64,000 nt of DNA from Niabella yanshanensis (GTDB taxonomy: Bacteria > Bacteroidota > Bacteroidia > Chitinophagales > Chitinophagaceae): NCBI RefSeq assembly GCF_034424215.1, contig NZ_CP139960.1, forward strand, positions 1-64,000, written 5' to 3'. Each line of letters begins with the position of its first letter. The first letter of the stretch is position 1. Shown here in pieces: positions 18,780-52,797 of this stretch. A program made the translations under genes and the position numbers. The notes beneath the pieces were generated by a model, which worked only from the letters and a program-made list of their open reading frames with translations, searched no databases and was not told the DNA's origin.

Positions 18780-20237
18780 ATGAGTAATGGAATGATCGTA
18801 CTTACGGCAATTTTATCGGCTTTGTTATCTGTAACTGCGGCCAGCAGTTGTGTGAAAAATGGAAATGAGTATACATTGGCAGATCTGCAGCTGGACCGGC
18901 AATTGTTGATTATGGAAGCAGGACAGGCGGAGCAGGTTCATGTAACCGCAATTCCGGAGGCAACGAAACAGGTAACAGTTCAATGGGCTTCCGCTGACGA
19001 AAACGTTGCGGTGGTTGATAATGGATGGGTAACAGCAGTTGGTGCAGGAGAAACAACCGTAACTGTAAGTTACAAAAACATACGTAAAACAGTGCAGGTT
19101 AAAGTGAATGGTCCGGATACGGATAAGAAGCTGGCGGTTCTCTTTGACAGGTCTCTTTCCAATACCCCGCAAGCAGAATTAATTTTAAACGGTGTCGCCA
19201 ATTATACTAAGCAGGGATTGAATATAACCGGTACCGCCAGTACGGTCAAACTGGATAAATTTTATGCTATTGCCGAACGCAAGGTACAATATCATATAAG
19301 GCTGTCTGCAGATGCAAAAGCTATATTTCACAGCAGCGAGAAAGATTTTAAGGCCTATGTAGATGTTGTTAATAAAAAAATAAGCATTGCGACCAGTCCT
19401 GTTACAGAGAAAAAAGTTGACTTTCTGAAAGCTGACCAGGACTATATTATTGAGATCTATCATGTATATCAGCAGGCAAGACTACGTATTACCGATATGA
19501 AGACAAAACAGCAGGCAGAGGTTTCGGCAGTGAATGACGGGCAGGGAGGTACCGGTAAAGGCGTATTGCAGCCGGGCTTTGCCGTGGGCATGCAATGGGA
19601 CTACTATTGCTTCGGTCTTTCAAGCGGAACATCCATGCTGGTAAAGCGAATCGCTGTCAGTGCTTTAAAGAAGAAAGTAAAATTGTTGCTGTATGGCGAT
19701 TCTATTACGCAGCCGGAAGGATATTTCCTGTCTAAGGATTTTCATTTAGCCTGGACGCAACAGGTAATCAATAAGCTGAGCGGCAATGCTATGTCGAGCG
19801 GGCGTGGAGGAGCACAGATTGATATGGTAATGAATTATATTAAGAATGAACTGCCCTTTATCGAAACAGAATATGTAATGGTCACCATAGGAACCAATGG
19901 CGGTAATACAGAAGCTAAATTAAAAGACCTCGTCAGTTACATCAAAGCCAATGGGGCGATACCTATTCTTAATAATATACCCAGTAACGAAAGCGGAACG
20001 CAGGTGGCGGTAAATGACCTGTTGGCCAAAGTGAGGAATGACATGAATATAAAAGGATGCCGGTTCGATTTACCTACTTCTATAGATGGTGATGGCAAAG
20101 TGGTAGATAAATCTACTATGTATTGGGAGGATTACAGTGGTAGCTATGGATGGCAGATTTATCATCATCCCAATGAAATCGGGGGTGTTAAAATGTTTCA
20201 GCAAACACTGATTGATTTACCGGTTTTATATCAATAA
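18780..20237 (+). CDS. Lipoprotein SGNH/GDSL-family hydrolase with Big_2 Ig-like domain
   Basis: A 485-residue exported protein with signal MSNGMIVLTAILSALLSVTA and a likely lipobox at ASSC. Residues of about 30-110 form a bacterial Ig-like (Big_2) domain (VQWASADENVAVVDNGWVTAVGAGETTVTV). A beta-rich segment of about 115-295 may be a laminin-G/concanavalin-like sandwich. The C-terminal 190 residues are an SGNH hydrolase: LLYGDSITQ with nucleophile Ser308, SSGRGGAQID as the Gly block, VTIGTNGGN as the GxN block, and YHHPNEIGG with His463 as the catalytic His. Such domains remove acetyl or other acyl groups from glycans, so it probably deacylates the substrate of this locus. The acyl group is not known. 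The gene follows the glycan-binding lipoprotein by 33 bp. Confidence 0.82.
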   Translation: MSNGMIVLTAILSALLSVTAASSCVKNGNEYTLADLQLDRQLLIMEAGQAEQVHVTAIPEATKQVTVQWASADENVAVVDNGWVTAVGAGETTVTVSYKNIRKTVQVKVNGPDTDKKLAVLFDRSLSNTPQAELILNGVANYTKQGLNITGTASTVKLDKFYAIAERKVQYHIRLSADAKAIFHSSEKDFKAYVDVVNKKISIATSPVTEKKVDFLKADQDYIIEIYHVYQQARLRITDMKTKQQAEVSAVNDGQGGTGKGVLQPGFAVGMQWDYYCFGLSSGTSMLVKRIAVSALKKKVKLLLYGDSITQPEGYFLSKDFHLAWTQQVINKLSGNAMSSGRGGAQIDMVMNYIKNELPFIETEYVMVTIGTNGGNTEAKLKDLVSYIKANGAIPILNNIPSNESGTQVAVNDLLAKVRNDMNIKGCRFDLPTSIDGDGKVVDKSTMYWEDYSGSYGWQIYHHPNEIGGVKMFQQTLIDLPVLYQ

Positions 20238-20327: not shown

Positions 20328-21797
20328 ATGATTAGGAGTCTGTATGTTGCAATGTTGTTGGTCCTGTGCGCCTGCTCTAAGAGCGAATCCCAGGCTGACG
20401 TTATTCCGGGCAAGGTTGAAGCATTAAATATATATCCCGGTAAAGAACGGGTGCGGATTGAGCTTTCATTCTCAGATCCGGGTATTGAGTATTTTGATGT
20501 GTATTGGAAGGGGAGATCCCTGTCGAAAAGAATTCACAAGGATGAGGCGGTGAACCGCACTGTTACCAGTTATATTGAGCAGTTAAATGAAGGGTATCAT
20601 ACATTTGATGTGGTGGCCTATAATGCCGGAGGGAAAACTTCTGCTGCTGTGCAGGCTCAGTGTATGGTTTATGGGGAGGCTTATTTGTCCGGTTTAAATA
20701 ACCCATTAGCGAGGGATATTGTTTTTATCCGGGGTAGTATCCCTTATATAGAATGGAATGAGCTGGAAGGAGATGCCGTAGCTATTAATATAGACTACAC
20801 AACGGCAGCCGGAACGGCACAGAGGGTCAGGGTAATCAAAGGCATGTCCACGGTGTCGCTGCCCGGTTACAAACAGCTATCTGAAGTGGCTTATCAAACC
20901 CAGTATCTGCCCGGGCAAAACTCAATTGATACCTTTGCCGCGCCGAAACAAATTATTCCTTTCTTAACCCAATATGCCAATCACACTTTAAAAAATATTA
21001 TTGAAAAATCCGGATTGGTAAACCGGGTTATTTCTCAAACCGGTACGGATATTCATCCCGATGTGGAATATACGAGGCTTCAGTTTGAGAACGGATCCGG
21101 TGCTGCATTTAGTCTTTTTGCACTTGGGGTGGATCTGAGTAAAGGTAATACCTCTTTAACTACGTTGATGCCGGATAATGCTACCCAATTTGGTTTACAG
21201 ACTGTTAAAACAATGGCAGAACGTCGCGATGTTGCCGGAGGAAAGATCATAGCAGCTGTCAATGCCGATTTTTTTGACTGGTCGCCTGTATCGGGAAGGC
21301 CCTGGGGGCCGGTTGTGGTTGAAGAAGCGGTAGTAAAGAATTTTATAAAGGAAGGGATCGGTGTAACTACCTATTTCGGGGTGAAGAAGGATGGCAGCCT
21401 TTCTATCGATTTGACTTCGTCGTTATCTGCGGCTGATTACAATAGCTTCAGTAATATGACCGGAGGGGGAACCAACCTGCTGTATTTAAGAGGTGCGCCT
21501 CGTGTGTATAATGATGTGGTGAGAGAGCCACGCACTATGATTGGTTACACGAGCGATAAAAAAGTGTACCTGGTGCTGGTGGACGGCCGGCGTCCGGGAT
21601 ATTCTGTTGGTATGACAATCGACGAATTGATTGCCGTAATGAAAAGCCTGGGGATTTATTCGGCCACCAATCTTGATGGCGGGGGCTCCAGTACGATGGT
21701 ACTGAAAAATAACAATGGTGCATTTGAAGTGGTAAACCGGTATTCCGATGCATCGCCGAGAGCTGTTGCCAATGCAATTGCAATTAAATTAAAGTAG
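20328..21797 (+). CDS. Lipoprotein fusion of DUF4998 and a phosphodiester glycosidase (NAGPA-type) domain
   Basis: A 489-residue lipoprotein with signal MIRSLYVAMLLVLCAC. Residues of about 20-215 are DUF4998-like (VEALNIYPGKERVRIELSFS), similar to the N-terminal part of the lipoprotein at 17124. The C-terminal half matches the NAGPA/phosphodiester glycosidase fold: IIAAVNADFFDWSP, RPWGPVVVEEAVVKNF, PRTMIGYTSDKKVYLVLVDG and the strongly conserved ATNLDGGGSSTMVL. In animals this fold removes GlcNAc from GlcNAc-phospho-mannose; bacterial members are mostly uncharacterised. The fusion suggests a glycan-anchored enzyme that cleaves sugar-phosphodiester linkages. The activity is inferred from fold only. 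Confidence 0.8.
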   Translation: MIRSLYVAMLLVLCACSKSESQADVIPGKVEALNIYPGKERVRIELSFSDPGIEYFDVYWKGRSLSKRIHKDEAVNRTVTSYIEQLNEGYHTFDVVAYNAGGKTSAAVQAQCMVYGEAYLSGLNNPLARDIVFIRGSIPYIEWNELEGDAVAINIDYTTAAGTAQRVRVIKGMSTVSLPGYKQLSEVAYQTQYLPGQNSIDTFAAPKQIIPFLTQYANHTLKNIIEKSGLVNRVISQTGTDIHPDVEYTRLQFENGSGAAFSLFALGVDLSKGNTSLTTLMPDNATQFGLQTVKTMAERRDVAGGKIIAAVNADFFDWSPVSGRPWGPVVVEEAVVKNFIKEGIGVTTYFGVKKDGSLSIDLTSSLSAADYNSFSNMTGGGTNLLYLRGAPRVYNDVVREPRTMIGYTSDKKVYLVLVDGRRPGYSVGMTIDELIAVMKSLGIYSATNLDGGGSSTMVLKNNNGAFEVVNRYSDASPRAVANAIAIKLK

Positions 21798-21846: not shown

Positions 21847-23682
21847 ATGAAAATAAAGAGTTTTATAGTTTTTTATTGGAGCGTCATGGTTATGTTGTTC
21901 TTCTGCGCATGTAAAAAGACGTCCAATGCTGCTGAGGAGGGAAAAGGAGCCGGCCCTGGTGCAGAAAGAGTTACGAACTTTAATAACGTTGTAGGTGTCG
22001 ATCATTTTGGCCGGACATTCGGAAGTATTTCTTCGATGAAAACTGATAAACAGGTAGGACTATTCTTTTGGCTATGGATTGGTCAGCCGCACGCCGGTAA
22101 CATTTATGATGCCTCAAAAATATTAGCGATGCCCAACGGACTGAAGTTGCTGACAGATTTTGAATACCAGGATGAATCGATCAGCCCAAACGGTCAGGCT
22201 CATTTCTGGGGTGAACCTATATGGGGTTACTATAATTCTGAAGATGAGTGGGTGTTAAGAAAGCAGGTGGAGATGCTGACGATTGCAGGTATTGATTTTA
22301 TTTACTTTGATGCTACCAATGCGTTTATCTATAAAAATGTTTTTATGAAACTGCTGGCCATTATAGATGAGTATCAAAAGAACGGCTTTAGCCCGCCGAA
22401 AGTGGCTTTTTATACCCACTCAAGGTCTTTCCAGACCACGCGGGAGCTTTACAGGGAATTGTACCAGCCCGGCTTATTCCCTGATACATGGTATCGGGTA
22501 AGTGGCAAGCCAATGATCATCGCTTATACCAACCCGGAGGACGATTTAAATGAGGCCAGATCGCGGGGAGACCAGGATTATACCCCGGGCGTTTTGCCCC
22601 CCGATATTCTTGGTTTTTTTCATTTTTACCGGCCTCAGTGGCCTGGTGATCCGGTATACCCAGATGGATTTCCCTGGGTAGAATGGATTCATCCGCAACC
22701 TATGCATAATGGTGTAATGAATGTGACGGTAGCCAGTCATCCCAATGTTCCCATGTCTTTTTCACTGACCAGGCCCAATGAAATGACCAATTGGGGCAGG
22801 GGATGGAACCCTTTCTCTAAACAGAATAATGCAGCAAATGTAGATAAGGGTACTTTTTTCCAAACACAATGGGATTACGCCATTGCTGCGGAACCCAAAA
22901 TGATTTCAATCGGAGGCTGGAACGAATGGATTGCATATAAGCAGCCTTACTGGAATGAATATGTTATGGTAGATGCGGTAAACAAAGAATATTCCAGGGA
23001 TATTGAGCCCATGAGGGGTGGCTACCAGGATGCATTTTATATGCAGATGATACAAAATATTAGGAAATATAAAGGTGTAAGCAATGAAATTACGGCGTCT
23101 GGAAAAACAACAATAGATATTACAGCCGGAGAAGAGCCATGGAAGCGGATCCCTTACACTGCAGTTAATATTAGTAAGAACAGGTACGAGCGTAACTCAT
23201 CGGGTGCTGCAACTATTACACGGTATACGCAGCCTGCCCCCGAAAATCATATACAGGAAGTAAAAGTGGCACATGACGATCAGCAGATCTATTTCTTAAT
23301 AAGAGGAAGAAATTCTTTTAGCAATCCGGGAGGCAAATTCAACTGGGTGAATATACTGATAGGTACCGGAGTTCCTTCCTTAAAAGCATGGGAGGGTTAC
23401 GAGTACCTGATCGGTAAAACCTATGCCTCGGGCCAAGCGTCGGTAGGGAAGTTACAACCAGATTTTAAAACAATAGCCAGCGGTGCAGCGAAGTATACAA
23501 TCAATGGAAATGTACTCCAGATCAGTTGCCCCAAGGTAGCAGTAGGACTTAATGGATCGGGAACCTTCTATTTTAAGGTAGCAGCAGATGTAGCCGAACC
23601 ACAGGATATTATGTCCTATTACACTTCGGGCAGTTCGCTTCCGCTGGGCCGGTTAAGTTATGCTTATGCAATGGGAAATTAA
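21847..23682 (+). CDS. GH71/99-like putative glycoside hydrolase with C-terminal CBM9/DOMON-like domain (paralogue 1)
   Basis: A 611-residue lipoprotein (MKIKSFIVFYWSVMVMLFFCAC). The first 400 residues look like a TIM-barrel hydrolase related to GH71/GH99: VGLFFWLWIGQPH, AHFWGEPIWGYYNSEDEWVL, IDFIYFDATNAF, KVAFYTHSRSF and GGWNEWIAYKQPY, the last holding a candidate catalytic Glu360 in an Asn-Glu-Trp motif. MRGGYQDAFYMQMIQNIRKYK closes the barrel. Residues of about 415-611 form a beta-sandwich like CBM9/DOMON (EVKVAHDDQQIYFLIRGR, FYFKVAADV). Two close paralogues lie at 29978 and 57877. No characterised relative is recognised with confidence, so the linkage cleaved is unknown. Confidence 0.7.
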   Translation: MKIKSFIVFYWSVMVMLFFCACKKTSNAAEEGKGAGPGAERVTNFNNVVGVDHFGRTFGSISSMKTDKQVGLFFWLWIGQPHAGNIYDASKILAMPNGLKLLTDFEYQDESISPNGQAHFWGEPIWGYYNSEDEWVLRKQVEMLTIAGIDFIYFDATNAFIYKNVFMKLLAIIDEYQKNGFSPPKVAFYTHSRSFQTTRELYRELYQPGLFPDTWYRVSGKPMIIAYTNPEDDLNEARSRGDQDYTPGVLPPDILGFFHFYRPQWPGDPVYPDGFPWVEWIHPQPMHNGVMNVTVASHPNVPMSFSLTRPNEMTNWGRGWNPFSKQNNAANVDKGTFFQTQWDYAIAAEPKMISIGGWNEWIAYKQPYWNEYVMVDAVNKEYSRDIEPMRGGYQDAFYMQMIQNIRKYKGVSNEITASGKTTIDITAGEEPWKRIPYTAVNISKNRYERNSSGAATITRYTQPAPENHIQEVKVAHDDQQIYFLIRGRNSFSNPGGKFNWVNILIGTGVPSLKAWEGYEYLIGKTYASGQASVGKLQPDFKTIASGAAKYTINGNVLQISCPKVAVGLNGSGTFYFKVAADVAEPQDIMSYYTSGSSLPLGRLSYAYAMGN

Positions 23683-23703: not shown

Positions 23704-25341
23704 ATGCCTTCATTTATAAAACGTTTAAAAATCACTATTGGATTTTTTATTGTAACAATTTTTTTTATTTATTCAACGGGTGTTTTCGCGCAGCCTGGTA
23801 ATGTAAGCTTGCTGCCTTACCCGGCGGCCATGACTATAACAAATGAAACAGTGGCATTTGAAAAAACCGTTAAAGTATACGTTGCAACAAACAGGTTGGT
23901 TGACAGAAGCTACTGGACAGGAATTTTTCAGCAAATGGGGCTGGAACCCGAATGGCTGAAGAGCGCCTCAAAAGCACAGGTTGTTTTTAACATCAGGAAG
24001 GTAAAAGAGAGTAGCGATGATGAATCTTATACTTTGGAAATAGCACCTGGCAGGAAAACAACCATTGAGGCAACTGCAAACAGCCATCGTGGTATTTTAT
24101 ACGCATTGCAAACGCTCAGACAACTGGCAAAACGATCCGGATCCTATACAACATTTGCGGCGTGTTCCATATCTGACAAGCCCGCATTTTCCTGGCGGGC
24201 TTTTATGTTGGATGAAAGCCGTCATTTTCATGGTAAAGAAACGGTGAAGCGGCTATTGGATGAAATGGCAGGTCTCAAAATGAATGTCTTTCACTGGCAT
24301 TTGGTTGATGACCCTGCCTGGCGTTTGGAAATAAAAAAATATCCGGCACTTACGGCCATCGCATCAAGGGGAAACTTTGAACATATGATGCGGTTTCGTG
24401 ATGCTCCCAACAGGAAGGATAGCTTGTTTCATGGACCGCCCGCCCGGTTTTATACACAGGATAATATAAAGGAGATTATTGCCTATGCGCACTATCGGGG
24501 TATCAAAGTGGTTCCGGAGATTGAAGTTCCCGGTCATGCAACAGCATCCATTTTTGCTTATCCCTGGTTAGGAGCCAGCAGCAAGGAAAAAGGGTCAGGA
24601 ATTCATGGAGATCTGTATGATGTAACAGACCCGAAAGTTGAAGCGTTCCTGCATAATGTATTAGATGAAGTAATAGCATTATTTCCCGATGGTATCGTTC
24701 ATATAGGAGGCGACGAGGCAGACTACGGGCATTGGAAAAGCTCAAAAAGTATTAATGATTTTATGAAAAAAAATGCTATTCCAACTTATTCTGATCTGCA
24801 GGTATGGGCCATTAACCGTATGTCAAAATATATTGCCCGGAAAGGATACCGGATGATTGGCTGGAACGAAATTACCGGTGATAACATAAGGGAAGAGGCG
24901 CATATACAGGAAGGTAGCACCGGGAAGCTTGCTAAAGGTACTATTGTGCAATTTTGGGACGGCAAAGTGAGCCTGGTAAATAAGGCAATTGGACAGGGAT
25001 ATGATATTGTTAATTCCGAGCGGCATTTTACCTATCTCGATTATCCATATGAAGTAACTTCTTTGACAAAAGCCTATTCCTTTAATCCGGTTCCCCAGGG
25101 TATAGACTCTGCTGATCAAAAAAAAATATTGGGTCTCGGTTGCCAGATGTGGGGTGAATATACTCCCACAACCGAACGTTTATATTATCAGATATTCCCC
25201 CGGATAGCAGCTTTTGCTGAAATAGGATGGGTTTCGCCGGAAACTAAAAGAAGCTATGTCGATTTTAGGAAAAGATTGGAGACACTGGAGCAGCTGTGGT
25301 TACATAAGGGATATATAAAAGAACAATCAGGCAAATACTAA
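23704..25341 (+). CDS. GH20 beta-N-acetylhexosaminidase
   Basis: A 545-residue exported enzyme that removes terminal beta-linked GlcNAc or GalNAc. The N-terminus has a Sec signal ending near VFAQ. A GH20b N-terminal domain (about 35-155, ending in RGILYALQTLRQLAK) precedes the TIM barrel, which starts with KPAFSWRAFMLDESRHFHG. The NVFHWHLVDDPAWRLEIKKYP segment is typical of the family. The catalytic Asp-Glu pair is in HIGGDEADY (Asp337, Glu338), consistent with substrate-assisted catalysis. QFWDGK and QMWGEYTPTTERLYYQIFPR match later substrate-binding loops. Full length and with key residues intact. It implies N-acetylhexosamine in the target glycan. Confidence 0.93.
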   Translation: MPSFIKRLKITIGFFIVTIFFIYSTGVFAQPGNVSLLPYPAAMTITNETVAFEKTVKVYVATNRLVDRSYWTGIFQQMGLEPEWLKSASKAQVVFNIRKVKESSDDESYTLEIAPGRKTTIEATANSHRGILYALQTLRQLAKRSGSYTTFAACSISDKPAFSWRAFMLDESRHFHGKETVKRLLDEMAGLKMNVFHWHLVDDPAWRLEIKKYPALTAIASRGNFEHMMRFRDAPNRKDSLFHGPPARFYTQDNIKEIIAYAHYRGIKVVPEIEVPGHATASIFAYPWLGASSKEKGSGIHGDLYDVTDPKVEAFLHNVLDEVIALFPDGIVHIGGDEADYGHWKSSKSINDFMKKNAIPTYSDLQVWAINRMSKYIARKGYRMIGWNEITGDNIREEAHIQEGSTGKLAKGTIVQFWDGKVSLVNKAIGQGYDIVNSERHFTYLDYPYEVTSLTKAYSFNPVPQGIDSADQKKILGLGCQMWGEYTPTTERLYYQIFPRIAAFAEIGWVSPETKRSYVDFRKRLETLEQLWLHKGYIKEQSGKY

Positions 25342-25404
25342 GCAATATTTGAATATATACAACTAATGTATGAATGGTCAATGAATAAATTATTTATTAC
25401 AACA

Positions 25405-26700
25405 ATGAACAGGTATAATCTATTTTTTTTCTTTTTGATATTACATGTATCGGGCTTCACCGCTAAGGCACAGCACAAGGAGACTGCCACTCATAAAGTA
25501 CATTCAATTGAAAATGGAAAAGTATACATCATCACACAAACGAAAGCAAGTTATAAAATAGATTCAGCCCGTTATGCCGTTTTTATTCCTGAGGGCATTA
25601 CCAGCATTAATGGGGTATTAATTCATCAGCATGGTTGTACTATGGAGGGGCGTGGTATGGCAACGGCTTATGATGTGCAGTACCAGGCATTCGCAAAAAA
25701 ATGGAACCTGGCAATTGTTGGCCCCGATCTATATGCCAAAAATAATTGTCACGATTGGAAAAACCCCGGTTCGGGATCGGCTGATGCTTTATTAACAACG
25801 CTCAATCAGGTTAGTGTACTGGCAAAGATTCCTTCTCTCAAAAATGCACCCTGGCTATTATGGGGTCATTCCGGTGGAGGATACTGGTCGCAGGCTATGA
25901 TGGCTGCATATCCGGAAAGAGTGATGGCGCTTTTTAGTTATTCTCCGGGCTTAAATGCGAGCTTTAATTACCCTGAAGCAGCCATGCAAATTCCGGTGAT
26001 GATCAGGTATGCCGGTCCGGAGGGAGACGCCTGCTGCTGGGAGTCTGCTGTACGTACTTTTAACGAGTTGCGAAAAGGTGACGGTATGGTAAGTATCGCG
26101 TTAACCAGGTATCAGAACCATAATTACAGCTTTGTTCGTTACATGGCCATTCCATTTTTTGAAGCGGTAATGCAACAGCGAATGCCCGAAAAAGCCGCTA
26201 GTGGTTTTACAGCCATGCGCCCGATAGACCGATCTAAAGCCTGGTTGGGAGATACCGCTTCATTGAACATCTATCCCGAAAGACATTACCCCGGTGAAAA
26301 GCTGAGCGCTTCCTGGCTAACAGATTCGATAACTGCTGTAAAATGGAGGGAGTATATAATAACCGGCACTATTACAGACCGTACGGCTCCCCCTGCACCA
26401 TATGGGCTTAAGTTGCTTCGAAGACATAATATGACAGTAGAGCTGAGCTGGAAAGCTGATGCAGATATAGAATCGGGCATCAGTCATTTCAACATTTATA
26501 AAGACGGCAACTTGATAAATCGTTTTCCCTCATCGGGTATATACCAGGGCTTTGATACCAACGGTGACAATGCATTTCCTATGACGGTAGCTCCTTTACA
26601 CATGGAAATAACCGTTGCCGCAAACGATACAGGCAAAATAGAGATTAGTACTGTAAATCATTTCGGGTTGGAATCTGCAAAGGTTCTATGCCCCCGGTGA
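25405..26700 (+). CDS. Exported alpha/beta hydrolase, possible carbohydrate esterase
   Basis: A 431-residue protein from ATG 25405, chosen over in-frame ATGs at 25366 and 25384 because MNRYNLFFFFLILHVSGFTAKAQ is then a clean signal peptide. The alpha/beta-hydrolase core shows an oxyanion strand (GVLIHQHGCTMEG) and a nucleophile elbow WLLWGHSGGGYWSQAMM with Ser156. HNYSFVRYMAIPFFEAVM may carry the catalytic His. A C-terminal region of about 110 residues (PPAPYGLKLLRRHNMTVELSW) looks like a fibronectin type III-like domain. The family resembles feruloyl/acetyl-esterase-like or poly-hydroxybutyrate-depolymerase-like proteins; function as a glycan esterase is inferred from context. It lies between GH20 and GH127. 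Confidence 0.7.
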   Translation: MNRYNLFFFFLILHVSGFTAKAQHKETATHKVHSIENGKVYIITQTKASYKIDSARYAVFIPEGITSINGVLIHQHGCTMEGRGMATAYDVQYQAFAKKWNLAIVGPDLYAKNNCHDWKNPGSGSADALLTTLNQVSVLAKIPSLKNAPWLLWGHSGGGYWSQAMMAAYPERVMALFSYSPGLNASFNYPEAAMQIPVMIRYAGPEGDACCWESAVRTFNELRKGDGMVSIALTRYQNHNYSFVRYMAIPFFEAVMQQRMPEKAASGFTAMRPIDRSKAWLGDTASLNIYPERHYPGEKLSASWLTDSITAVKWREYIITGTITDRTAPPAPYGLKLLRRHNMTVELSWKADADIESGISHFNIYKDGNLINRFPSSGIYQGFDTNGDNAFPMTVAPLHMEITVAANDTGKIEISTVNHFGLESAKVLCPR

Positions 26701-26994: not shown

Positions 26995-29790
26995 ATGATT
27001 GAAGGAAAAGTAAGGATATTTTTTATTGCGCTGATTATTGTTGTATCGGGCACACAAATAAGCAAGGCTCAAAACGTCCAGGCAGGTGATACCGCCCGCC
27101 CAAAAGAAAAGGGCATGGAGTATTCAGGGGTAAAAGAGGTAAAAACCAACGAAGGTTATGTTAACTCCAGTTTGCGTGTCACCAATGGGAACGAAAGGGT
27201 TATCAATGATACAGAACTGACTTATTCGGGCAACTGGGAATTCGACCGGCTGTTGGCACGGAGTAGCGGCTATTTTTGTAATACCCGCGCTGCTGCTAAG
27301 CAGGATGGCGCTACTGCTGTTTACAATTTTACAGATTGTGAAGGCATTGTATGGTATGCGCAGCCTGTTAAAAATGGTGCCAAGGCAGAGGTGTATATAG
27401 ATAACAAATTGGTAGAGGAAGTAGATTGTAGTAAAGTAAATTCAGACGGTGTGGTGTTCAGCAGCGGCGCATTAAAGCGTGGCGATCACAGGATCGTAAT
27501 CATAGCGAAAAAAGGCCCGGTTGAAATTGATCGGATAGGAAGCAAAGGCAGGGTTACAACTCCCGTGAAAATTGATGGCGCCAACCATTCATTTGTTCAG
27601 TATACAGCAGGATTTAAAATAACGCCAGCCACATTAAATAATCCGTCAAGCCAGGCGGTTGCTTATGAAGATAATGAAAATTGGGAGTTTTACGCTAAGG
27701 GGTCTACTTTTCAGTGTTTGGGCGAAACAGGCCCGGATGGGGGCGTTATGCGCATCTACATCAATGATAAGCAATACGGTGATATTAACCTCTATTCAAA
27801 AAACAGGTCATCAGGTAAAATTTTATTGAGTCTGACTAACTTACCTCCGGGCAAGTTCAACAGGATCAAAGGAGTAGTACTTACACGAGATAAGAAAGTA
27901 GCCATTGAAGGATTTGTTATCAGCGATCCCAGCTGCCTCATGGTAGAAATGAACCTTAACACGGATAGGGAAATTGCCAAAATGGCCCGGCATGAAACTA
28001 CTGCTTCTGATTCTTCCAGCTGGAGGCCAGTGAAAATGGGAGCCAGTCCGGCGCTGAATGGGGTTTTATTAGGAGCGGGCGTTTTCCAAACGGTATTTAA
28101 CAGGAACATTCAGTACCTGAGCGACTGTTTAAAAAAGAAGCACTGGGTAAATGATAAAGATCCCAACAGGATATGGATTGATATCCTTACCGGCTCCAAC
28201 GAAGGCCGGATGCTTGGTGGAATGGGACATACGCTTCGCTATAAAGAAATTCCTGAATTCAGAAAGGCAATTGAGGATATACTGGAAGAGATCGATCGTC
28301 GTCAGTACGCTAATGGCCGGGGCTATATGATGCCCTATGAAAGTATCAATTACAAAATATCAACGGATACCTGGCCATTAATAATGCGCGATGAGCAGAA
28401 GAATTATGATCGTGCAATGCTAACCAAAGGACTGCTGGCCGCTGGTAGTGCAGGGCATGACAAAGCATACCAGATACTAAGACCTTTTTACGACTGGTAC
28501 AACAATGCTAAAGAATACCTGCCGCTGATGTTGCTGGGAAGCATGGGTATACAGGGTAGCATTGCAGGACCTATGGTCTACCATTCACCCATCGGGAAGC
28601 CGGAGGACATTCAGACCAATATGAAATATTATGATATGGATTGGTGGCTGGATGCATTAGGGGAAGGACTTCCGGAAGCGGCCTGGAGATTTACCCTGAA
28701 TCGTCCGCATAATTATTTACTAACCAGTATCTGTGCTCTGTTTGATATCTATAAGGCAACGGGTGAAGAGCGCTACCTTAAAGCCTGTCTTGGAGCCTGG
28801 AAGATCTACCATGAGTATTTCCAGATTCCCGGAGGCGGCATCAGTTTGTGCGAACACTTTGAATGCAGACCACAAACGCACAAGCTCACCAATCTTCCCA
28901 ATAATATTTATGAAACCTGCGGTAATGTTTTCTGGGTCGATCTGAACCATCGGCTGCTTCAGTTATGGCCCGAGAAGGAAGTATATGCAGCGCATGTTGA
29001 GCAATCATTATACAATATTGTATTTGCTGCCCAGGGTGAAGATGGAACGATCCGATATTTCAACCAGGTGAACGACGGCAAATTTCCTACCTTATGTAAT
29101 AATACTTGTTGTGAGGTACAGGCTACTGCAATTTATGGGATGCTGCCGCAATATATTTACTCGCATGCAAACGATGGCGTTTATATCAATTTATTTGCAG
29201 AATCTGAGTACAAGGGGAAAGTCAATGACCAGGATTTCAAATTAGCGATGAACACAAAATTTCCCTATGGCAATAATGCATCCTTAACGGTTTCATTGAC
29301 TGCTCCCGCAGCTATGAAAATACGCCTGAGGGTGCCGGGCTGGCTTGCGGGAGATTTTAACCTTAGGATTAACGGGAAGAAAACAGCAAAAGCCGTATCC
29401 GGAACATACGTTACGCTGGATCGTACCTGGAGCGATGGAGACGTAATCACGTGGGAGCTTCCAATGAAATGGAAAGCAGAGCAATACGTTGGTGATACGC
29501 GTATTAAAGGCGCCACCAGGTATGCATTCTCTTACGGCCCCATGTTGATGGCCCTGAAGGGTCCTATGATGCAGGATGTCTTCCAGGCTGAAAACGAAAA
29601 CTCTGTTCGCCTCAATATGACACCCGAAATGCTGTTAAACAAAATCAGAAGTACCAATACACCTTGCGATTTTATGATTGATGGCGTACCGGATTATAGT
29701 TTTACGCCCTATTTCGCTTTACAGTATGGCTCTTTTACTTGTTTTCCCGGACTGGATAAGGCGAAGCGGGGAAATATGGGTAATAAATAA
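26995..29790 (+). CDS. GH127-superfamily glycoside hydrolase (beta-L-arabinofuranosidase-like) with N-terminal beta domains
   Basis: A 931-residue exported enzyme (signal MIEGKVRIFFIALIIVVSGTQISKAQ). Residues of about 50-320 contain two similar beta-sandwich units (TYSGNWEFDRLLARSSGYF and AYEDNENWEFYAKGSTF) that resemble carbohydrate-binding modules. The (alpha/alpha)6 catalytic region begins near 365 (GVFQTVFNRNIQYLSDCLKKK). The zinc-binding Cys3-Glu site of GH127 is present: YETC gives Glu640 and Cys642, and NTCCEV gives Cys705 and Cys706; in HypBA1 these correspond to Glu338, Cys340, Cys417 and Cys418. C-terminal beta domains follow (RVPGWLAGDFNLRINGK). Known GH127 activities are beta-L-arabinofuranosidase and removal of aceric acid from rhamnogalacturonan II; which applies here is unknown. 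Confidence 0.86.
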   Translation: MIEGKVRIFFIALIIVVSGTQISKAQNVQAGDTARPKEKGMEYSGVKEVKTNEGYVNSSLRVTNGNERVINDTELTYSGNWEFDRLLARSSGYFCNTRAAAKQDGATAVYNFTDCEGIVWYAQPVKNGAKAEVYIDNKLVEEVDCSKVNSDGVVFSSGALKRGDHRIVIIAKKGPVEIDRIGSKGRVTTPVKIDGANHSFVQYTAGFKITPATLNNPSSQAVAYEDNENWEFYAKGSTFQCLGETGPDGGVMRIYINDKQYGDINLYSKNRSSGKILLSLTNLPPGKFNRIKGVVLTRDKKVAIEGFVISDPSCLMVEMNLNTDREIAKMARHETTASDSSSWRPVKMGASPALNGVLLGAGVFQTVFNRNIQYLSDCLKKKHWVNDKDPNRIWIDILTGSNEGRMLGGMGHTLRYKEIPEFRKAIEDILEEIDRRQYANGRGYMMPYESINYKISTDTWPLIMRDEQKNYDRAMLTKGLLAAGSAGHDKAYQILRPFYDWYNNAKEYLPLMLLGSMGIQGSIAGPMVYHSPIGKPEDIQTNMKYYDMDWWLDALGEGLPEAAWRFTLNRPHNYLLTSICALFDIYKATGEERYLKACLGAWKIYHEYFQIPGGGISLCEHFECRPQTHKLTNLPNNIYETCGNVFWVDLNHRLLQLWPEKEVYAAHVEQSLYNIVFAAQGEDGTIRYFNQVNDGKFPTLCNNTCCEVQATAIYGMLPQYIYSHANDGVYINLFAESEYKGKVNDQDFKLAMNTKFPYGNNASLTVSLTAPAAMKIRLRVPGWLAGDFNLRINGKKTAKAVSGTYVTLDRTWSDGDVITWELPMKWKAEQYVGDTRIKGATRYAFSYGPMLMALKGPMMQDVFQAENENSVRLNMTPEMLLNKIRSTNTPCDFMIDGVPDYSFTPYFALQYGSFTCFPGLDKAKRGNMGNK

Positions 29791-29977: not shown

Positions 29978-31780
29978 ATGCGCATGCTTAAATATGGCTT
30001 TGCTTCAATGCTTGCAGTTGGGATCACTATGCTCTCACCTGTTGAAGGACAGGGCCCTGCAATTCAGTTACAATTAAAAGCAGAACAATCTATGTGGCGT
30101 TTGGCCGGTACGGATGCATTGAACAGAAGTTTTGGGCCTTCTGCAGGAAAGCTGGCCGCAGAGAAAACTGTTGGTGTCTTTTATTCGTTATGGCTGGGGC
30201 AGCATAAAAGCGGGCAGAAAGCTGTTTATGATATTCAGAAATTATCAGAGACCAATCCTGAAGCGTTAAATGATGTAAAAGGCAGGCCGGAAAGTCCTTT
30301 GAATGAATTTCATTTCTGGGGAGAACCGCTTTACGGCTATTATAGCATGAGCGATCCCTGGGTAGTAACGCGGCATATAGAACTACTCACCAATGCCGGA
30401 GTAGATTATCTGTGCATTGATGCAACGAACCGGGTGCTTTACGCAGAACCGGTAAAGAACCTGCTAAGGGTGTTGACAATGTTTGTGGAGCAGGGGTTTA
30501 AAGCGCCTAAAGTAGTTTTTTACACCAATAGTTTTTCCGGCACAACAGTAGACGATCTCTATAACCAGTTTTATAAGTCGGGAATCTATAACCATTTATG
30601 GTTTAGCCCCCTGGGCAAGCCGATGATCATCGGAATTACCGAAAAAAACGGCAAAGCCTCCGACATGACCAGGCATAACGAATTTACTGATTTTATAAAA
30701 CCTGAAATGCAGCAATACTTTGATGTAAGAGAATCTCAATGGCCTAATGGTGATTATAACCGGGTTTCCATTCCATGGATGAGCTGGCAATACCCCCAAT
30801 GGAACCATAATGGAACGGTTGCTGTTCCGGTGGCTCAGCATAGTCACTCGGTGATAGTAGCCAGTGCCATGCACCCCGAAAGCAGCCGCGGATACAACAA
30901 TGTAACCAAACAGGTTGAAAAGGACTGGACGGCAGGTGCTAATTTTCAAACCATGTGGGATGCCGTGTTTCAAAGCAAAGCCAATATTGACCATGTATTG
31001 ATCACCTCTTTTAATGAGTGGATGGCTATTAAATATGCCAATGCACACGGACATGATAAGGTTTTTTTTGTGGATGTCTATAACCACGAGTTTTCCAGGG
31101 ACATAGAAATGATGCGGGGCGGCTACCAGGATAATTTTTATTTGCAGCTGGCGAGAAATATACGGCGCTTTAAGCTGAAAGAAGTTCCGCCGGCAGGGTA
31201 TAAAGAAAAGACTATTGACATAATTAAAGGATTAGACAGCCAATGGAAAGATGTGGAATCTGTGTATACGGATGTTGCTGGTGATGCGATCAGCCGCAAT
31301 TTTTTGAATGCCACTGGCACACATACTTATACCGATAACAGTAACCGTAACGACATTACTGAAGTAAAAGTTGCACACGATAAGAAAATGCTGTACTTCC
31401 GAATAACAACAGCTTCCCCTGTTACTGTTTATAATAACAACGATGTTAACTGGATGAATATCCTTATTAAAACTAAAAAGCCGGGCAGCAATTTTGCAGG
31501 CTACCAATACATCATTAACCGAAAACCTGCTACACGAAAAAAAACTTCCGTTGAACAATCTTCGGGAGGCTATAACTGGAAAGCTTCGGGTAATGCGCAA
31601 TATGTGGTAAAGAATAATGTGATGCAGGTGGCGGTTCCACTTCATGCTGTGGGCCTTACAGCTAATAAAGTTTCATTTGAATTTAAAGTTTCAGATAATG
31701 TAACCAGGTATAACGATATAATGGACTACTATGTAACAGGTGACAGTGCACCCATAGGGCGCATGAACTATGCCTACTGA
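29978..31780 (+). CDS. GH71/99-like putative glycoside hydrolase with C-terminal CBM9/DOMON-like domain (paralogue 2)
   Basis: A 600-residue exported protein (signal MRMLKYGFASMLAVGITMLSPVEG, no lipobox). It shares the whole architecture of the protein at 21847: VGVFYSLWLGQHK, FHFWGEPLYGYYSMSDPWVV, VDYLCIDATNRV, KVVFYTNSFSG, TSFNEWMAIKY with candidate catalytic Glu347, and MRGGYQDNFYLQLARNIRRFK. The C-terminal beta-sandwich (EVKVAHDKKMLYFRITT, FEFKVSDNV, DSAPIGRMNYAY) is also conserved. It is the most divergent of the three copies and the only one with the SFNEW rather than GGWNEW version of the motif. It is the last gene of the second operon and is separated from GH127 by 187 bp. Confidence 0.7.
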   Translation: MRMLKYGFASMLAVGITMLSPVEGQGPAIQLQLKAEQSMWRLAGTDALNRSFGPSAGKLAAEKTVGVFYSLWLGQHKSGQKAVYDIQKLSETNPEALNDVKGRPESPLNEFHFWGEPLYGYYSMSDPWVVTRHIELLTNAGVDYLCIDATNRVLYAEPVKNLLRVLTMFVEQGFKAPKVVFYTNSFSGTTVDDLYNQFYKSGIYNHLWFSPLGKPMIIGITEKNGKASDMTRHNEFTDFIKPEMQQYFDVRESQWPNGDYNRVSIPWMSWQYPQWNHNGTVAVPVAQHSHSVIVASAMHPESSRGYNNVTKQVEKDWTAGANFQTMWDAVFQSKANIDHVLITSFNEWMAIKYANAHGHDKVFFVDVYNHEFSRDIEMMRGGYQDNFYLQLARNIRRFKLKEVPPAGYKEKTIDIIKGLDSQWKDVESVYTDVAGDAISRNFLNATGTHTYTDNSNRNDITEVKVAHDKKMLYFRITTASPVTVYNNNDVNWMNILIKTKKPGSNFAGYQYIINRKPATRKKTSVEQSSGGYNWKASGNAQYVVKNNVMQVAVPLHAVGLTANKVSFEFKVSDNVTRYNDIMDYYVTGDSAPIGRMNYAY

Positions 31781-40233: not shown

Positions 40234-40388
40234 TGCGGTATGAATAGCGGATGCAGTATGCAAAGTGAAACAATTAGTAGTGCCATATGCGATTATTATA
40301 AATTTTATTTCCCCGTCTACGTAATCATACAGGAGCGATTCAAGAACGCTGCATAAACAATTTAATGAGCTATCTATTCCCATTAGCA

Positions 40389-41707: not shown

Positions 41708-43069
41708 ATGGTATTCAACAGAAAACAATCCGGCATCATTTTCTTTTTGATTTTGCTTTTTTGGAAGGCGGAGACCATCGCACAAAAAAGCAGCATTATT
41801 TCGAAAGAGGACCTTGTTTATTTAAAGGGTATTACGAGGGCGGTGTTAGATAGTTCACGTATCCGTCCGGGACAGCCAATGCCTGCTGGTTTTGGGATAA
41901 ACAATACCGGGGGAACCCTGATCAGGCCGGGAGGCAGGGAAACTTACCCCGCTTTTTGGATCCGGGATTATGCCATGAGCCTCGAAACCGGTATGGTCTC
42001 AGTAGAAGAGCAGCGACATATGCTAAAGCTCACCGCAGCCACGCAGTGTGATCAAACCTGGATCACCAAAGGAGGGAGCATGGTGCCTTATGGTGCGATT
42101 GCAGATCATATACTGGTGAATAATAGCATGCCGGTTTATTTCGCAGGTACATACGATCTGGAGCAGCAAGGTACACATGCATTTGGCATGTTTCCTCCTT
42201 ATTGTGATCAGTTTTATTTTATTAAGATGGCGCATCATTACGTGAACAGTACAGCCGATCTGAAAATACTGAGTACAGAGATTAATGGGAACTCACTTAT
42301 TAGCAGACTGGAAACTGCTTTTCATGTGCCTCCATCAGACAGGAAAACACATCTTGTATATAGTATAGAAAACTACAGGGCAGTAGATTTCGGTTTCCGT
42401 GACGCGATACATATTACCGGTGATCTGTTATTCCCTTCCCTTCTGAAATACGAAGCAGCCTTAGAATTATCAGATCTGTTTAAAAGAAGGGGGAATACCG
42501 GGAAAGCTTTAAAATATATAAATATAGCTGCGGCTATAAAGGCTGCAATCCCGGGGAAATTTGCCGACAGCGATGGCATGTTGCGGGCTTCAACAGGTAA
42601 GAGCGCGCAGCGGGATGTTTGGGGTACCGCACTGGCAATATACATGAACCTGTTACCTGCGCCTTTGGTGAACAGGGCCTCACAGGTATTGACTGCTGCT
42701 TATAAAAATGGTAGCCTGGCTTATAAAGGCGCTATCCGGCATGTGTTGAAAACCGATGATTTCAGCACGGCCACATCCTGGGAAGGCGCTATACCTGAAA
42801 CAACTTTAAACAGTTATCAGAACGGAGCTTATTGGTTCACTGCAACGGGTTGGGTAGCGTATGCCATTTCGAAGACAGATAAGGCAAGTGCCGGTAAATT
42901 AACCCGGGACTATATTACGGAGCTGAGGTTGACAGACTATCGCAGGGGTAGTGGCTTTGCCGGACCGCTGGAATGCTTTTACCCTCCATCCTATACCCGC
43001 GGACCCGTTTATCTTACATCGGTATCCTGTCCTTATATAGTTTTAAATAAAATGATGATCAATGATTAG
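41708..43069 (+). CDS. Putative exported (alpha/alpha)6-barrel glycosidase-like protein, family not assigned
   Basis: A 453-residue protein from ATG 41708 (the frame opens at 41675, but only the later start gives a direct signal, MVFNRKQSGIIFFLILLFWKAETIAQ). The sequence has the feel of a six-hairpin glycosidase: TYPAFWIRDYAMSLETGMVS, YCDQFYFIKMAHHYV, RAVDFGFRDAIHITGDLLFP, TATSWEGAIPETTLNSYQNG and AYWFTATGWVAYAIS. Acidic residues in WIRDY, FRDAIH and SWEGAIPE are catalytic candidates. No family was recognised. Its stop overlaps the start of the GH78 gene by 8 bp, implying translational coupling and probably action on the same oligosaccharide. Confidence 0.6.
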   Translation: MVFNRKQSGIIFFLILLFWKAETIAQKSSIISKEDLVYLKGITRAVLDSSRIRPGQPMPAGFGINNTGGTLIRPGGRETYPAFWIRDYAMSLETGMVSVEEQRHMLKLTAATQCDQTWITKGGSMVPYGAIADHILVNNSMPVYFAGTYDLEQQGTHAFGMFPPYCDQFYFIKMAHHYVNSTADLKILSTEINGNSLISRLETAFHVPPSDRKTHLVYSIENYRAVDFGFRDAIHITGDLLFPSLLKYEAALELSDLFKRRGNTGKALKYINIAAAIKAAIPGKFADSDGMLRASTGKSAQRDVWGTALAIYMNLLPAPLVNRASQVLTAAYKNGSLAYKGAIRHVLKTDDFSTATSWEGAIPETTLNSYQNGAYWFTATGWVAYAISKTDKASAGKLTRDYITELRLTDYRRGSGFAGPLECFYPPSYTRGPVYLTSVSCPYIVLNKMMIND

Positions 43070-45959
43070 CGGAAAAGTATTTAGTTTTTTGGTTTCAAGC
43101 AAGAGTAATAGGTATTTACCGGAGGGGTATGTCTTATTTGTTCCAAGTATTTGCCATGCGTGGTTTAATTCAACAGGCTTCAACTTTGGTTGCCCGAAAG
43201 CAGCACGTAAGCCATTGGTGTATATAACCTGTATGCTTCTTTTGTTTTTTACGGGCTTACGGACCAGTGCGCAAACGCTGTTTCCCGACCAACTGCGTTG
43301 CGAGTTAATCGAAAACCCATTGGGACTTGATATCGATAAGCCTTCACTGAGCTGGCGCTTTAAAGCTGTGGGAAAAAACAGGAAGCAAAGTTCCTATGAG
43401 GTAATAGTAAGTAAGGACAGTTTATTTCGTTCGGGAAACATCATGTGGGTTTCCGGGAAAACACCATCATCAAAAAATAATTTGATTTTGTACGCCGGAA
43501 AACCGCTCTCTTCTTTTACCCGTTATTTCTGGAAAGTACGTGTTTATGACCAGGATGGAAAACCTTCTCCCTGGAGTCAAAATGCCTGGTTTGAAACCGC
43601 TGCGTTAACTGAAAGTCATTGGAAGGGTAACTGGATCGGCGATGGTAGAAAAACCCCGGAGCAGGATGCCGATTTCTATAAGGACCGGGCAGCACCCGTA
43701 TTCAGAAAAACTTTCACATTGAGAAAAAAGGTGATAGCTGCCCGGCTGTATATTGCCGGCCTGGGATATTATGAAGCCTCAATCAACGGGAATAAAGTCG
43801 GGACCGAAATGCTGGCACCAGGATGGACCAGTTTTGATAAAACGGTTCTGTACAGGTCGATGGATATTACACCGATGCTGAAAGAGGGTATGAACGCAGC
43901 AGGCGTTATGCTGGGTAATGGTTGGTACAACCCGCTTCCATTGCGCATGTGGGGTGTTCATAATTTACGGGAACGCCTGGCTATCGGAGAACCCTGTTTA
44001 AAAGCAATGATCAGGATCTCTTATTCAGATGGTTCGAAGGAAGAGATTAATACAGATCAGAGCTGGCAAACCGTAGGTGGCCCGGTGCTTAGAAATAATG
44101 TTTTTTTAGGAGAGCATTATGATGCCAGAAAACGAATCGATAACTGGCAGGGAAATCAGGGTATATGGGCAACAGCTAAATCAGCTGTGATAGTAACCGG
44201 CCCCTTAGGGAAATTAAAAGCGCAATTACAACCGGGTGTTGAAGTTACCAGGATAGTAAGACCTGTAAAAATAACGGAAGTAAAACCGGGAGTTTACCTG
44301 GCTGATATGGGACAGAATTTTGCGGGAGTAGCTCGTATCAGGCTAAAAGCAGCAGCAGGCACCCGGGTAGTATTGAGATATGGAGAAGAAGTGTATAAGG
44401 ACGGTAGCCTTAATGGCATGACATCGGTAGCAGGACAGGTAAAAAACGGCAACGGCGGTCCGGGAGCTCCACAAGTCGCCTGGCAGGAAGACAGCTATAT
44501 AGCATCGGGTAGGGGTACGGAGACCTGGAATCCCCGTTTTACATTTCACGGCTTTCGCTACATAGAAATAAAAGGCTGGCCAGGTGTTCCGCAGCCTGCT
44601 GATATAGAGGGCTTAAGAATGAGTGCCGCAGTAGAACAGACAGGAAGTTTTGAGTGCTCAAATCCTATGTTGAATCAATTGGCCCAAAATATAAGATGGA
44701 CCTTTTTAAGTAACCTGTTCAGCGTTCAATCTGATTGCCCGGCCCGTGAGAAATTCGGTTATGGAGGAGATATGTTTTGTACCACAGAGGCTTTTTGCTA
44801 TAATTTCGACATGGCAAATTTTTACAAAAAAATAATTCAGGATCATGAAGACGCCCAGCGACCTTTAGGTGGTATTACTGAAACAGCACCCTATATGGGG
44901 ATTGCCGATGCGGGGCCCGGAGATCAATCGGGCCCATTGGGTTTTCAAATCGGTTTTGCCTACGCTATTAAACAGGTTTATGATTTTTACGGAGATAAAA
45001 GAGTCGTAGAGAAACATTATCCGGCACTTCAAAAACAGATCAGGTTTTTAGCCGACAGCGCCAAAAACAATCTGTATGATACTGATTTAAGCGATCATGA
45101 ATCTCTGGATGAAAAACCTATAGCTTTTACCGCCTCCTGCTTTTATTTATCCCATGTAAAACTGATGAATGAATTCGCAGTAATTCTGGGTAAGACAGAA
45201 GATGCGATAAAATATCAGAATATGTCTAAAAACATAGAAGCCGCAATCATCCGGAAATTTTATAATCCTGCTAACGGCGTGTTTGCAAACGGTACGCAAT
45301 CTGCCCAGTTCTTTGGACTTTGGCATAACCTGGTTAGCAAGTCAGCAAAGGACAACGCATTAAATGCCATGAAGCAGGCGGTTGCTAAAAAAGACCATCA
45401 TCTCTCTACAGGTATTTTTGGTACGAAAATGTTATTTGATGTTTTACGAAATAACAACCTCAATGACCTGGCCTATCAAATAGCGAGCCAGCTGGACTAC
45501 CCCGGGTGGGGACACATGATTGAAAATGGAGCAACTACTCTTTGGGAAACCTGGAAGTATTCAGATAATACCTATTCACATAACCACCCCATGTTTGGTT
45601 CAATTAACGAATGGTTTTACCGGGCTCTTCTGGGTATCAATGCTGCTGCTCCCGGGTTTAAAAAGATACTTATAAAACCTCAGCCAGCAGGCGATCTCAG
45701 TTATGCCAGCGGTAGTTATCGATCTGTAGCAGGCGAAATTAAAAGCTCATGGAAACTCGAAGCGAATGTTTATAGTTTAAATATTTCTATTCCTCCCAAT
45801 ACTACGGCCGATGTCTGGATCCGGACTGCCAAAGGCGCTGTTGTTACTGAATCAGGTAAAGATATCCGGAAACTCAAGACCATAGAAATGCGGCCGGGGG
45901 CTGATGGATACACCATTGTTCGGGTGGGATCGGGCGACTACCAGTTTCAAGCCCGTTAA
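43062..45959 (+). CDS. GH78 alpha-L-rhamnosidase
   Basis: A 965-residue GH78 enzyme that releases terminal alpha-L-rhamnose. The catalytic signature is DCPAREKFGYGGD with Asp558, general acid candidate Glu563 and Asp570; this matches the REK version seen in BsRhaB rather than the RDER version of the other two GH78 proteins here. The general base candidate is Glu829 in GATTLWETW. N-terminal beta domains carry LRCELIENPLGLDIDKPSLSWRF, YIAGLGYYEASINGNKVG and YLADMGQNFAGVARIRL. The first 50 residues ahead of the hydrophobic segment (LVYITCMLLLFFTGLRTSAQ) are unusual; the real start may be a TTG or GTG near 43215-43218. It overlaps the preceding gene by 8 bp from the ATG used here. Confidence 0.92.
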   Translation: MISGKVFSFLVSSKSNRYLPEGYVLFVPSICHAWFNSTGFNFGCPKAARKPLVYITCMLLLFFTGLRTSAQTLFPDQLRCELIENPLGLDIDKPSLSWRFKAVGKNRKQSSYEVIVSKDSLFRSGNIMWVSGKTPSSKNNLILYAGKPLSSFTRYFWKVRVYDQDGKPSPWSQNAWFETAALTESHWKGNWIGDGRKTPEQDADFYKDRAAPVFRKTFTLRKKVIAARLYIAGLGYYEASINGNKVGTEMLAPGWTSFDKTVLYRSMDITPMLKEGMNAAGVMLGNGWYNPLPLRMWGVHNLRERLAIGEPCLKAMIRISYSDGSKEEINTDQSWQTVGGPVLRNNVFLGEHYDARKRIDNWQGNQGIWATAKSAVIVTGPLGKLKAQLQPGVEVTRIVRPVKITEVKPGVYLADMGQNFAGVARIRLKAAAGTRVVLRYGEEVYKDGSLNGMTSVAGQVKNGNGGPGAPQVAWQEDSYIASGRGTETWNPRFTFHGFRYIEIKGWPGVPQPADIEGLRMSAAVEQTGSFECSNPMLNQLAQNIRWTFLSNLFSVQSDCPAREKFGYGGDMFCTTEAFCYNFDMANFYKKIIQDHEDAQRPLGGITETAPYMGIADAGPGDQSGPLGFQIGFAYAIKQVYDFYGDKRVVEKHYPALQKQIRFLADSAKNNLYDTDLSDHESLDEKPIAFTASCFYLSHVKLMNEFAVILGKTEDAIKYQNMSKNIEAAIIRKFYNPANGVFANGTQSAQFFGLWHNLVSKSAKDNALNAMKQAVAKKDHHLSTGIFGTKMLFDVLRNNNLNDLAYQIASQLDYPGWGHMIENGATTLWETWKYSDNTYSHNHPMFGSINEWFYRALLGINAAAPGFKKILIKPQPAGDLSYASGSYRSVAGEIKSSWKLEANVYSLNISIPPNTTADVWIRTAKGAVVTESGKDIRKLKTIEMRPGADGYTIVRVGSGDYQFQAR

Positions 45960-52634: not shown

Positions 52635-52761
52635 CGTATACAACTCATCGTTTTAAAACTCCAATTTAAGACTTAACTATGAATTTGATCAGTTAAAAAA
52701 AGATTTATTTTTTTTATTGTTTTGTCGGGTCAACACAGGATAGAAAACAGTTGCAGGTTAT

Positions 52762-52786
52762 TTAAGTTTGTTGTCAACAAAGTTAA
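52762..52786. promoter_or_regulatory. 25-bp near-perfect palindrome, probable operator of the rhamnose operon
   Basis: The half-sites TTAAGTTTGTTG and CAACAAAGTTAA flank a central T at 52774; 11 of 12 pairs match, the only mismatch being G52766/G52782. It ends 11 bp before the ATG of the aldolase gene and lies in the 163-bp divergent gap with the GntR gene. Size, symmetry and place fit a GntR-family dimer site that would block transcription of the operon until a sugar ligand binds. It also supports ATG 52798 rather than the TTG at 52768 (which lies inside the palindrome) as the aldolase start. A smaller TTAAG-A-CTTAA palindrome lies at 52666-52676. Confidence 0.7.
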
Positions 52787-52797
52787 TTGAGTTAATT

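Follow-up and report, generated by a model that had tools for sequence, protein, structure and literature searches.

Putative glycoside hydrolases of a distinct GH71/GH99-clan family beside rhamnose genes in Niabella yanshanensis

The first 64,000 nucleotides of the Niabella yanshanensis genome (hereafter the window, meaning the whole stretch that we analysed) encode three related proteins among genes for rhamnose use. What kind of enzyme would these proteins be, and on which glycan would they act? Our preferred answer, in which we place a little over even confidence, is that the three copies belong to a distinct glycoside hydrolase family in the GH71/GH99 clan, are secreted, and act jointly on a glycan that contains L-rhamnose and is probably esterified. 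The link of the copies to rhamnose is drawn entirely from gene neighbourhood. The genome is a single 5.54 Mb contig, and its closest named match was Niabella hibiscisoli at 83% identity.

The three copies and their gene neighbourhood

The copies are encoded as follows.

21847..23682, + strand: copy 1 (P1), 611 aa, barrel at about residues 44-410 and beta-sandwich at about 425-611; E360, D155 and A363
29978..31780, + strand: copy 2 (P2), 600 aa; E347 and D148
57877..59667, + strand: copy 3 (P3), 596 aa from the ATG at 57877; E344 and D141

Inspection of the ORFs found all three intact and on the plus strand. The ORF of copy 3 spans 57850-59667, within which the ATG at 57877 is preferable as the start. 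A script check located FWG at residues 120, 113 and 106, D-x-T-N at 155, 148 and 141, the Glu of N-E-W at 360, 347 and 344, and MRGGY at 389, 379 and 373 of copies 1, 2 and 3, respectively. The original prediction had given the proteins at 21847, 29978 and 57877 one architecture with these motifs in common; barrel, motifs and C-terminal sandwich were all present, and its numbering of the Asn-Glu-Trp glutamates (Glu360, Glu347 and Glu344) was identical to ours. Copies 2 and 3 share 35% and 50% identity with copy 1, which, as judged from the sequences, is far above chance level. All three start with a segment that by eye resembles a signal peptide and are therefore taken as secreted. The corresponding segment of copy 1 contains a Cys (also judged by eye) that may mark a lipoprotein.

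The neighbouring genes in the window included the following.

18780..20237, + strand: Big_2 domain with a weak GDSL-lipase-like match (under its cut-off); recurs beside copies in Bacteroidota
20328..21797, + strand: DUF4998 and NAGPA phosphodiester glycosidase domain
23704..25341, + strand: GH20 beta-hexosaminidase family
25366..26700, + strand: S28/PHB-depolymerase-like alpha/beta hydrolase, by sub-threshold matches; putative esterase; recurs in Bacteroidota loci
26995..29790, + strand: GH127-type protein
43062..45959, + strand: GH78 alpha-L-rhamnosidase family (a)
51603..52643, - strand: GntR-type regulator; recurs in Bacteroidota loci
52768..54126, + strand: class II aldolase; putatively cleaves rhamnulose phosphate
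54154..55125, + strand: xylose/rhamnose isomerase-like TIM barrel (AP_endonuc_2), under NCBIfam cut-offs
55152..57872, + strand: GH78 (b), adjoining copy 3 on its upstream side; recurs as a partner of copies
59685..60653, + strand: DUF4886 protein
60732..63539, + strand: GH78 (c), downstream of copy 3
63549..64000, + strand: RhaT L-rhamnose-proton symporter (245 bits), start only; runs beyond the window end

Around copy 1 the gene order was NAGPA, copy 1, GH20, the S28-like hydrolase, GH127 and copy 2, and copy 3 was flanked by two GH78 genes with the start of RhaT at 63549 in the same run. This order agrees with the earlier assignment of copy 3 to an operon with GH78 and RhaT and of copies 1 and 2 to one with GH20 and GH127, copy 2 being less tightly linked (gaps of 187 bp upstream and 658 bp downstream). 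The window also encodes a GH38-type protein. In the run that carries GH78 and GH38, two predicted proteins of 432 aa and 464 aa (40365-41663 and 41675-43069) were matched by neither Pfam nor NCBIfam at E<=0.001 and are possible further unnamed enzymes. A fourth, more distant copy of the family lies outside the window, about 63 kb further on (C1:122285-123952, locus L004), in the company of GH78, NAGPA, an enolase-superfamily gene and GH97. Its NAGPA-like neighbour parallels the DUF4998-NAGPA gene beside copy 1, and the NAGPA domains beside copies may mean that the glycan contains a phosphodiester-linked sugar.

Rhamnose genes are also compatible with a cluster that degrades rhamnogalacturonan-I or another pectin, in which the copies would be accessory pectin enzymes. 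The record titles of several loci of relatives name herbivore faeces or guts, and, on a circular contig, a weak GH88/105 match (50 bits) at C1:5531015 would precede the window by about 11 kb. However, no lyase, GH28 or GH88/105 was matched in 32 of the 34 window ORFs of at least 150 aa, the other two overlapping opposite-strand genes, and the RGI-lyase domain of the genome and its nearest strong GH88/105 were located at C1:606759 and C1:136415. We consider a pectin cluster distinctly unlikely.

Fold, kinship and the catalytic site

Family databases. Copies 1-3 received no Pfam or NCBIfam assignment, in keeping with the earlier description of an uncharacterised, possibly undescribed family. Copy 1 scored 21.6 bits against Pfam GH99 (PF16317), below the gathering score of 33 bits, copies 2 and 3 had no Pfam GH99 match, and the three copies gave nothing against NCBIfam beyond a single chance-level match. 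Pfam GH71 was unmatched by the copies (E up to 10) and by 59 members of the family (E<=0.01). PF14307 WbsX, which is not known to have been characterised, had no match in copies 1-3 and was not among the six families matched by the 59 members. Pfam GH99 was matched at E<=0.01 by 29/59 members, with a best value of 3.6e-9.

Structural comparison. A profile of the 59 sequences recovered GH99 structures first in the PDB, with BtGH99 (4acz) at E 1.5e-9 over profile positions 119-373. No GH71 glucanase was among the PDB profile matches, where the entries labelled 'family 71' are BxGH99. For copy 1, the AlphaFold model (mean pLDDT 92.4, pTM 0.90) had 26 Foldseek matches at E<=0.001, comprising 23 GH99 and 3 GH71 chains; GH99 held ranks 1-12 and 14-24, which points to a GH99-type (beta/alpha)8 barrel, at modest scores (a target TM near 0.5 and an rmsd of 8-10 A). 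Since the PDB profile matches lead to GH99 and the Foldseek matches to GH99 and then GH71, the kinship with GH71/99 proposed from the sequence holds. A single-sequence PDB search returned only antibody chance matches, and an hhalign comparison of alignment A2 with three GH99/WbsX rows covered 86 columns but not the NEW region. A plasmid search gave no match, nor did PADLOC for copy 1.

C-terminal domain. The sandwich of copy 1 was modelled on its own.

23098..23679, + strand: C-terminal beta-sandwich of copy 1, residues 418-611, pLDDT 93.3

The confident model upheld the beta-sandwich of the earlier 'CBM9/DOMON-like' description and lent the CBM9/DOMON label itself weak support, with no PDB fold match at E<=0.001. 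Glucodextranase 1ug9 was its best fold match (E 3e-3) and ethylbenzene dehydrogenase 2ivf_C its 11th, and many other matches were antibody domains. A C-terminal profile gave chance matches only among PDB sequences. CBM9_1 was matched by 1/59 members (E 7e-4), and EB_dh and Glucodextran_C by 2/50 and 1/50 (best E 0.072 and 0.015, which unrelated families equalled or bettered by chance). These stray matches lean towards a CBM9-like module without proving it. A 387-aa single-barrel relative (L077:17703-18863, - strand) with D-x-T-N and N-E-W-x-A...DIEPM stands in tandem with three two-domain copies, which suggests that the barrel alone may be the working unit. The same contig encodes a glucuronyl-esterase-like gene beside family copies (L077:10523-11776, - strand).

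Active site. We mapped the catalytic dyad using the PDB sequences of the BxGH99 E333Q and E336Q variants. The row set held 112 rows (104 with at least 300 model residues, 97 distinct) and included the 64 rows behind the model. BxGH99 E333 aligned with the Glu of NEW, while the place of E336, three residues on, is Ala in the copies' family. Among the 97 distinct rows, E360 was kept in 96/96 with a residue there, D155, D376 and D395 were each kept in 95/95, and R384 was also invariant wherever a residue was present. Position 363 was A in 89, M in 4, S in 1 and F in 1 of 95 rows and acidic in none. According to PMC13421300 and PMC11025385, GH99 has E-W-H-E and GH71 has D-Y-G-E, and substituting either dyad acid of fungal GH71 enzymes cost 200-15,000 fold (PMC12394665). 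The copies' family retains the first Glu of the GH99 motif and has E-W-x-A in place of the GH71 motif. Half of the acid pair expected in the pocket was thus borne out: the conserved Glu corresponds to the first dyad acid of GH99 and GH71, but the second site was non-acidic in 95/95 rows. This incomplete dyad ruled out plain membership of GH99 or GH71.

If the copies are hydrolases, a substitute second acid should exist. Because the E336 place is non-acidic, D155 is invariant and at a strand end, and D385, E387 and E381 vary, we propose with modest confidence that D155 of D-x-T-N is a candidate second acid and that E360 and D155 may form the working pair. D155 lies where a predicted strand ends, and in the profile alignment BtGH99 and BxGH99 have at that place the Thr of T-W-W-G/N-E. 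D376 and D395 would be the next candidates. We disfavour E381 (N, V, A or P in 10 rows), D385 (Ala in 3 rows) and E387 (Gln or Ala in 4 rows) as the second acid; the variation counts also spoke against SRDIEPM as a stand-in for the GH99 EGTQIEP segment that would supply E381 or D385. D133 and D150 were conserved in 63 and 64 of 64 rows and, since they lie before a helix and at a strand start in the copy 1 model, are probably away from the pocket.

Two readings other than a distinct hydrolase family bear on this site. The copies could be ordinary GH99 endo-alpha-mannosidases with a pair of the E333/E336 type, GH99 being the nearest solved family and about half of the 59 members matching its Pfam model; the score of copy 1 under the cut-off, the unmatched copies 2 and 3, and the uniformly non-acidic E336 place make this hardly credible. 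They could instead be non-catalytic glycan-binding proteins, descended from GH99-like enzymes that lost the second acid of the dyad, in line with the non-acidic site and with the attachment of a possibly binding-type sandwich. Yet invariance of E360, D155, D376, R384 and D395 would be unusual for a dead pocket, and the single-barrel relative exists without a sandwich, so we judge a binding role very improbable.

Comparison with known systems. GH99, the family of endo-alpha-1,2-mannosidases and mannanases (BtGH99 4acz, BxGH99 4ad1 and human MANEA), shares the barrel fold with the copies, as well as an N-E-W segment whose Glu is E333 in BxGH99. Unlike GH99, the copies' family has Ala for E336, Asp at the D-x-T-N place where GH99 has Thr, a hairpin and the SRDIEPM segment after NEW, and an extra C-terminal sandwich, and the copies sit below the Pfam GH99 cut-off. 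The GH71 alpha-1,3-glucanases AnGH71C (9fnf) and Agn1p (8yfh) were fold neighbours at E<=0.001. AnGH71C has a barrel followed by a beta-sandwich (PMC12394665), and both kinds of domain are predicted in copy 1, whereas the GH71 dyad departs from the E-W-x-A of the copies' family. WbsX proteins are likewise GH99-related: a WbsX-family member in L078, encoded among family copies, matches GH99 weakly and, unlike the copies, keeps E-W-S-E-G. PmGH99 of Prevotella melaninogenica is another bacterial GH71/99-like enzyme far from characterised members, and PMC13421300 presents it as a GH71/99-superfamily enzyme of unknown function. Unlike the copies, it consists of one barrel, carries D-Y-G-E and belongs to a GH87/GH97 locus.

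Across the Pfam, NCBIfam and PDB comparisons, the shared architecture and invariant residue set separate this family from GH99 and GH71. The proteins are best read as a separate family of the GH71/GH99 clan, with a putative catalytic motif that departs from those of the characterised relatives compared. The automatic '71/99-like' label of NCBI may already cover these proteins, and PMC13421300 says that the automatically annotated 71/99-like group requires study.

Relatives, subclades and loci

Three lineages. Relatives were found in Bacteroidota, Bacillota, Mycoplasmatota and one Planctomycetota MAG. A 3-row model matched 3/395 genomes and a 59-row model matched 14/296 relatives, each count including the genome studied here. 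In a 64-row tree built with a quick method and SH-aLRT as its only support, copy 1 joined two proteins of Chitinophagaceae (99), copy 3 joined four others of Chitinophagales type (98), and copy 2 joined the copies from L015 and L043 (100). The copy 2 group was nested in an 11-row clade (99), and each of the eight remaining rows there is the second tandem copy of a Firmicutes/Mollicutes operon. The S28-like gene lies within two genes of both Bacteroidota relatives of copy 2, and 6/8 of its Firmicutes relatives adjoin a hydrolase of their own, L038 ending at a contig edge and L045 having none. The copies had been described as divergent paralogues, and the tree placed them in three separate subclades, a pattern that fits an old separation and a division of labour; the earlier proposal that each copy cuts a different linkage goes further than the tree shows.

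Gene content of the loci. We retrieved 47 named loci from a species-genome collection by two peptide patterns, a route that leans towards members carrying HFWG and GKPMII, and labelled the neighbours by longest-ORF calling and home-made profiles seeded with genes of the window and of L012, L035 and L037. GH78 was present in 21/47 loci and not found in the locus DNA of 26/47, several of which are short contigs. Isomerase-like genes occurred in 12/47, two GDSL types in 12 and 11, SusD in 15/47 and an ABC solute-binding protein in 8/47. The 15 loci of the 'S28' profile, which was seeded with both kinds of hydrolase, were 9 Bacteroidota loci with the S28-like hydrolase and 6 Firmicutes/Mollicutes loci with a different one. 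Direct BLAST found no similarity between the two, which speaks against homology of the Firmicutes hydrolase with that of the window; the esterase parallel is therefore one of kind and not of descent.

The Firmicutes/Mollicutes order was GDSL, solute-binding protein, two permeases, two copies, alpha/beta hydrolase, Big_2 and GH78 in MAG loci L033, L035, L037, L039 and L044, and also in L045 without the hydrolase. L-rhamnose isomerase and aldolase follow in L035 and L045 and aldolase in L039; Pfam confirmed the RhaA and aldolase of L035. The same kinds of enzyme thus stand behind different import systems in Bacteroidota and Firmicutes loci, and the association of the copies with rhamnose genes recurs in both groups.

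Other neighbours of family copies included a GH106 rhamnosidase (L084:8675-11905), one relative adjoining both GH106 and GH78, and DUF5722 proteins in the Parapedobacter defluvii genome (L043:13581-15692 and L078:4205-6355). The orthologous cluster of Niabella hibiscisoli (L017 and L031) was broken by frameshifts in several genes, which are probably assembly errors.

Distance to GH78. We counted neighbours in 15 genomes mostly chosen for loci with GH78, a bias that raises the counts. Of 73 family rows, 58 were used and 15 fragments dropped; three of the four rows of genome G680 are pieces of frameshifted genes. The GH78 set was either the 93 strong matches among 129 or all 120 above the cut-off. 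Strong GH78 lay within 10 kb of 23/58 copies in 14 genomes of this biased sample, against 2.2 expected under an even spread, and any GH78 over the cut-off within 10 kb of 25/58 copies in 15 genomes, against 3.4 expected. In G682, a 2.1 Mb Oscillospiraceae MAG and the genome of L029, there were 19 near-full copies (for example in L079-L082), with 0/19 within 10 kb of a strong GH78 and 1/19 of a weak one.

The G682 copies would be expected if this is a same-clan glycoside hydrolase family with diverse substrates, linked to rhamnose only in some subclades or clusters, so that the glycan would bear rhamnose but the bond cut by the three copies would be a non-rhamnosidic one, for example at a branch linked through hexosamine, arabinose or a phosphodiester. 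The GH20, GH127, NAGPA and GH38-type genes in the window and the 26 loci without GH78 in their DNA are consistent with this, but Bacteroidota and Firmicutes loci with different importers both place GH78 and rhamnose catabolism beside copies. We regard substrate diversity of this kind as unlikely, though well worth keeping in view.

Proposed function and its significance

Under the preferred reading, joint action of hydrolases on a rhamnose-containing glycan, the predicted (beta/alpha)8 barrel would hold its catalytic site at the top. The site would surround Glu360/347/344, where the last strand ends, and this Glu corresponds by alignment to BxGH99 Glu333. The partner acid would not be the second dyad residue of GH99 and GH71, which is Ala here, and is probably the invariant Asp of D-x-T-N, where an early barrel strand ends. 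As the copies are separately inherited subfamilies in this sample, they probably split the labour on one glycan. Gene content suggests that freed rhamnose would be finished by GH78, RhaT and the isomerase and aldolase, and the substrate that fits best would be a glycan that bears rhamnose but is not RG-I, perhaps a microbial one that is acylated and has N-acetylhexosamine or phosphodiester branches.

A more specific idea, to which we give a slim chance, is that the copies are endo-acting enzymes for rhamnan-type chains in a new family, with the acid moved from the E336 place on the last strand to D155 on an early one and E360 as the base, and that they might use a GH99-like 1,2-anhydro intermediate on rhamnose. 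Alpha-L-rhamnosides, like alpha-D-mannosides, have their 2-OH trans to the leaving group, so such an intermediate is conceivable. Phages are known to have enzymes that cleave within rhamnose-containing chains, and nearly all papers listed for endo-rhamnosidase or rhamnan concern phages. An ulvan-degrading GH39 enzyme also cuts inside such chains (PMC8360166). We searched the literature by title and abstract start for GH99, GH71 and WbsX, GH78 families, endo-rhamnosidases and rhamnan, and rhamnose cell-wall polysaccharides, and none of the matches listed described the family.

GH71 and GH99 are reported to use different mechanisms (PMC12394665). If active, the copies would be a natural case of an active-site acid replaced within one clan. 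They would also be enzymes paired by nature that could be mapped onto a single glycan bearing rhamnose, and the diet of the G682 organism could reveal another substrate. For cutting inside rhamnose-containing chains, the copies' family would represent a different fold family.
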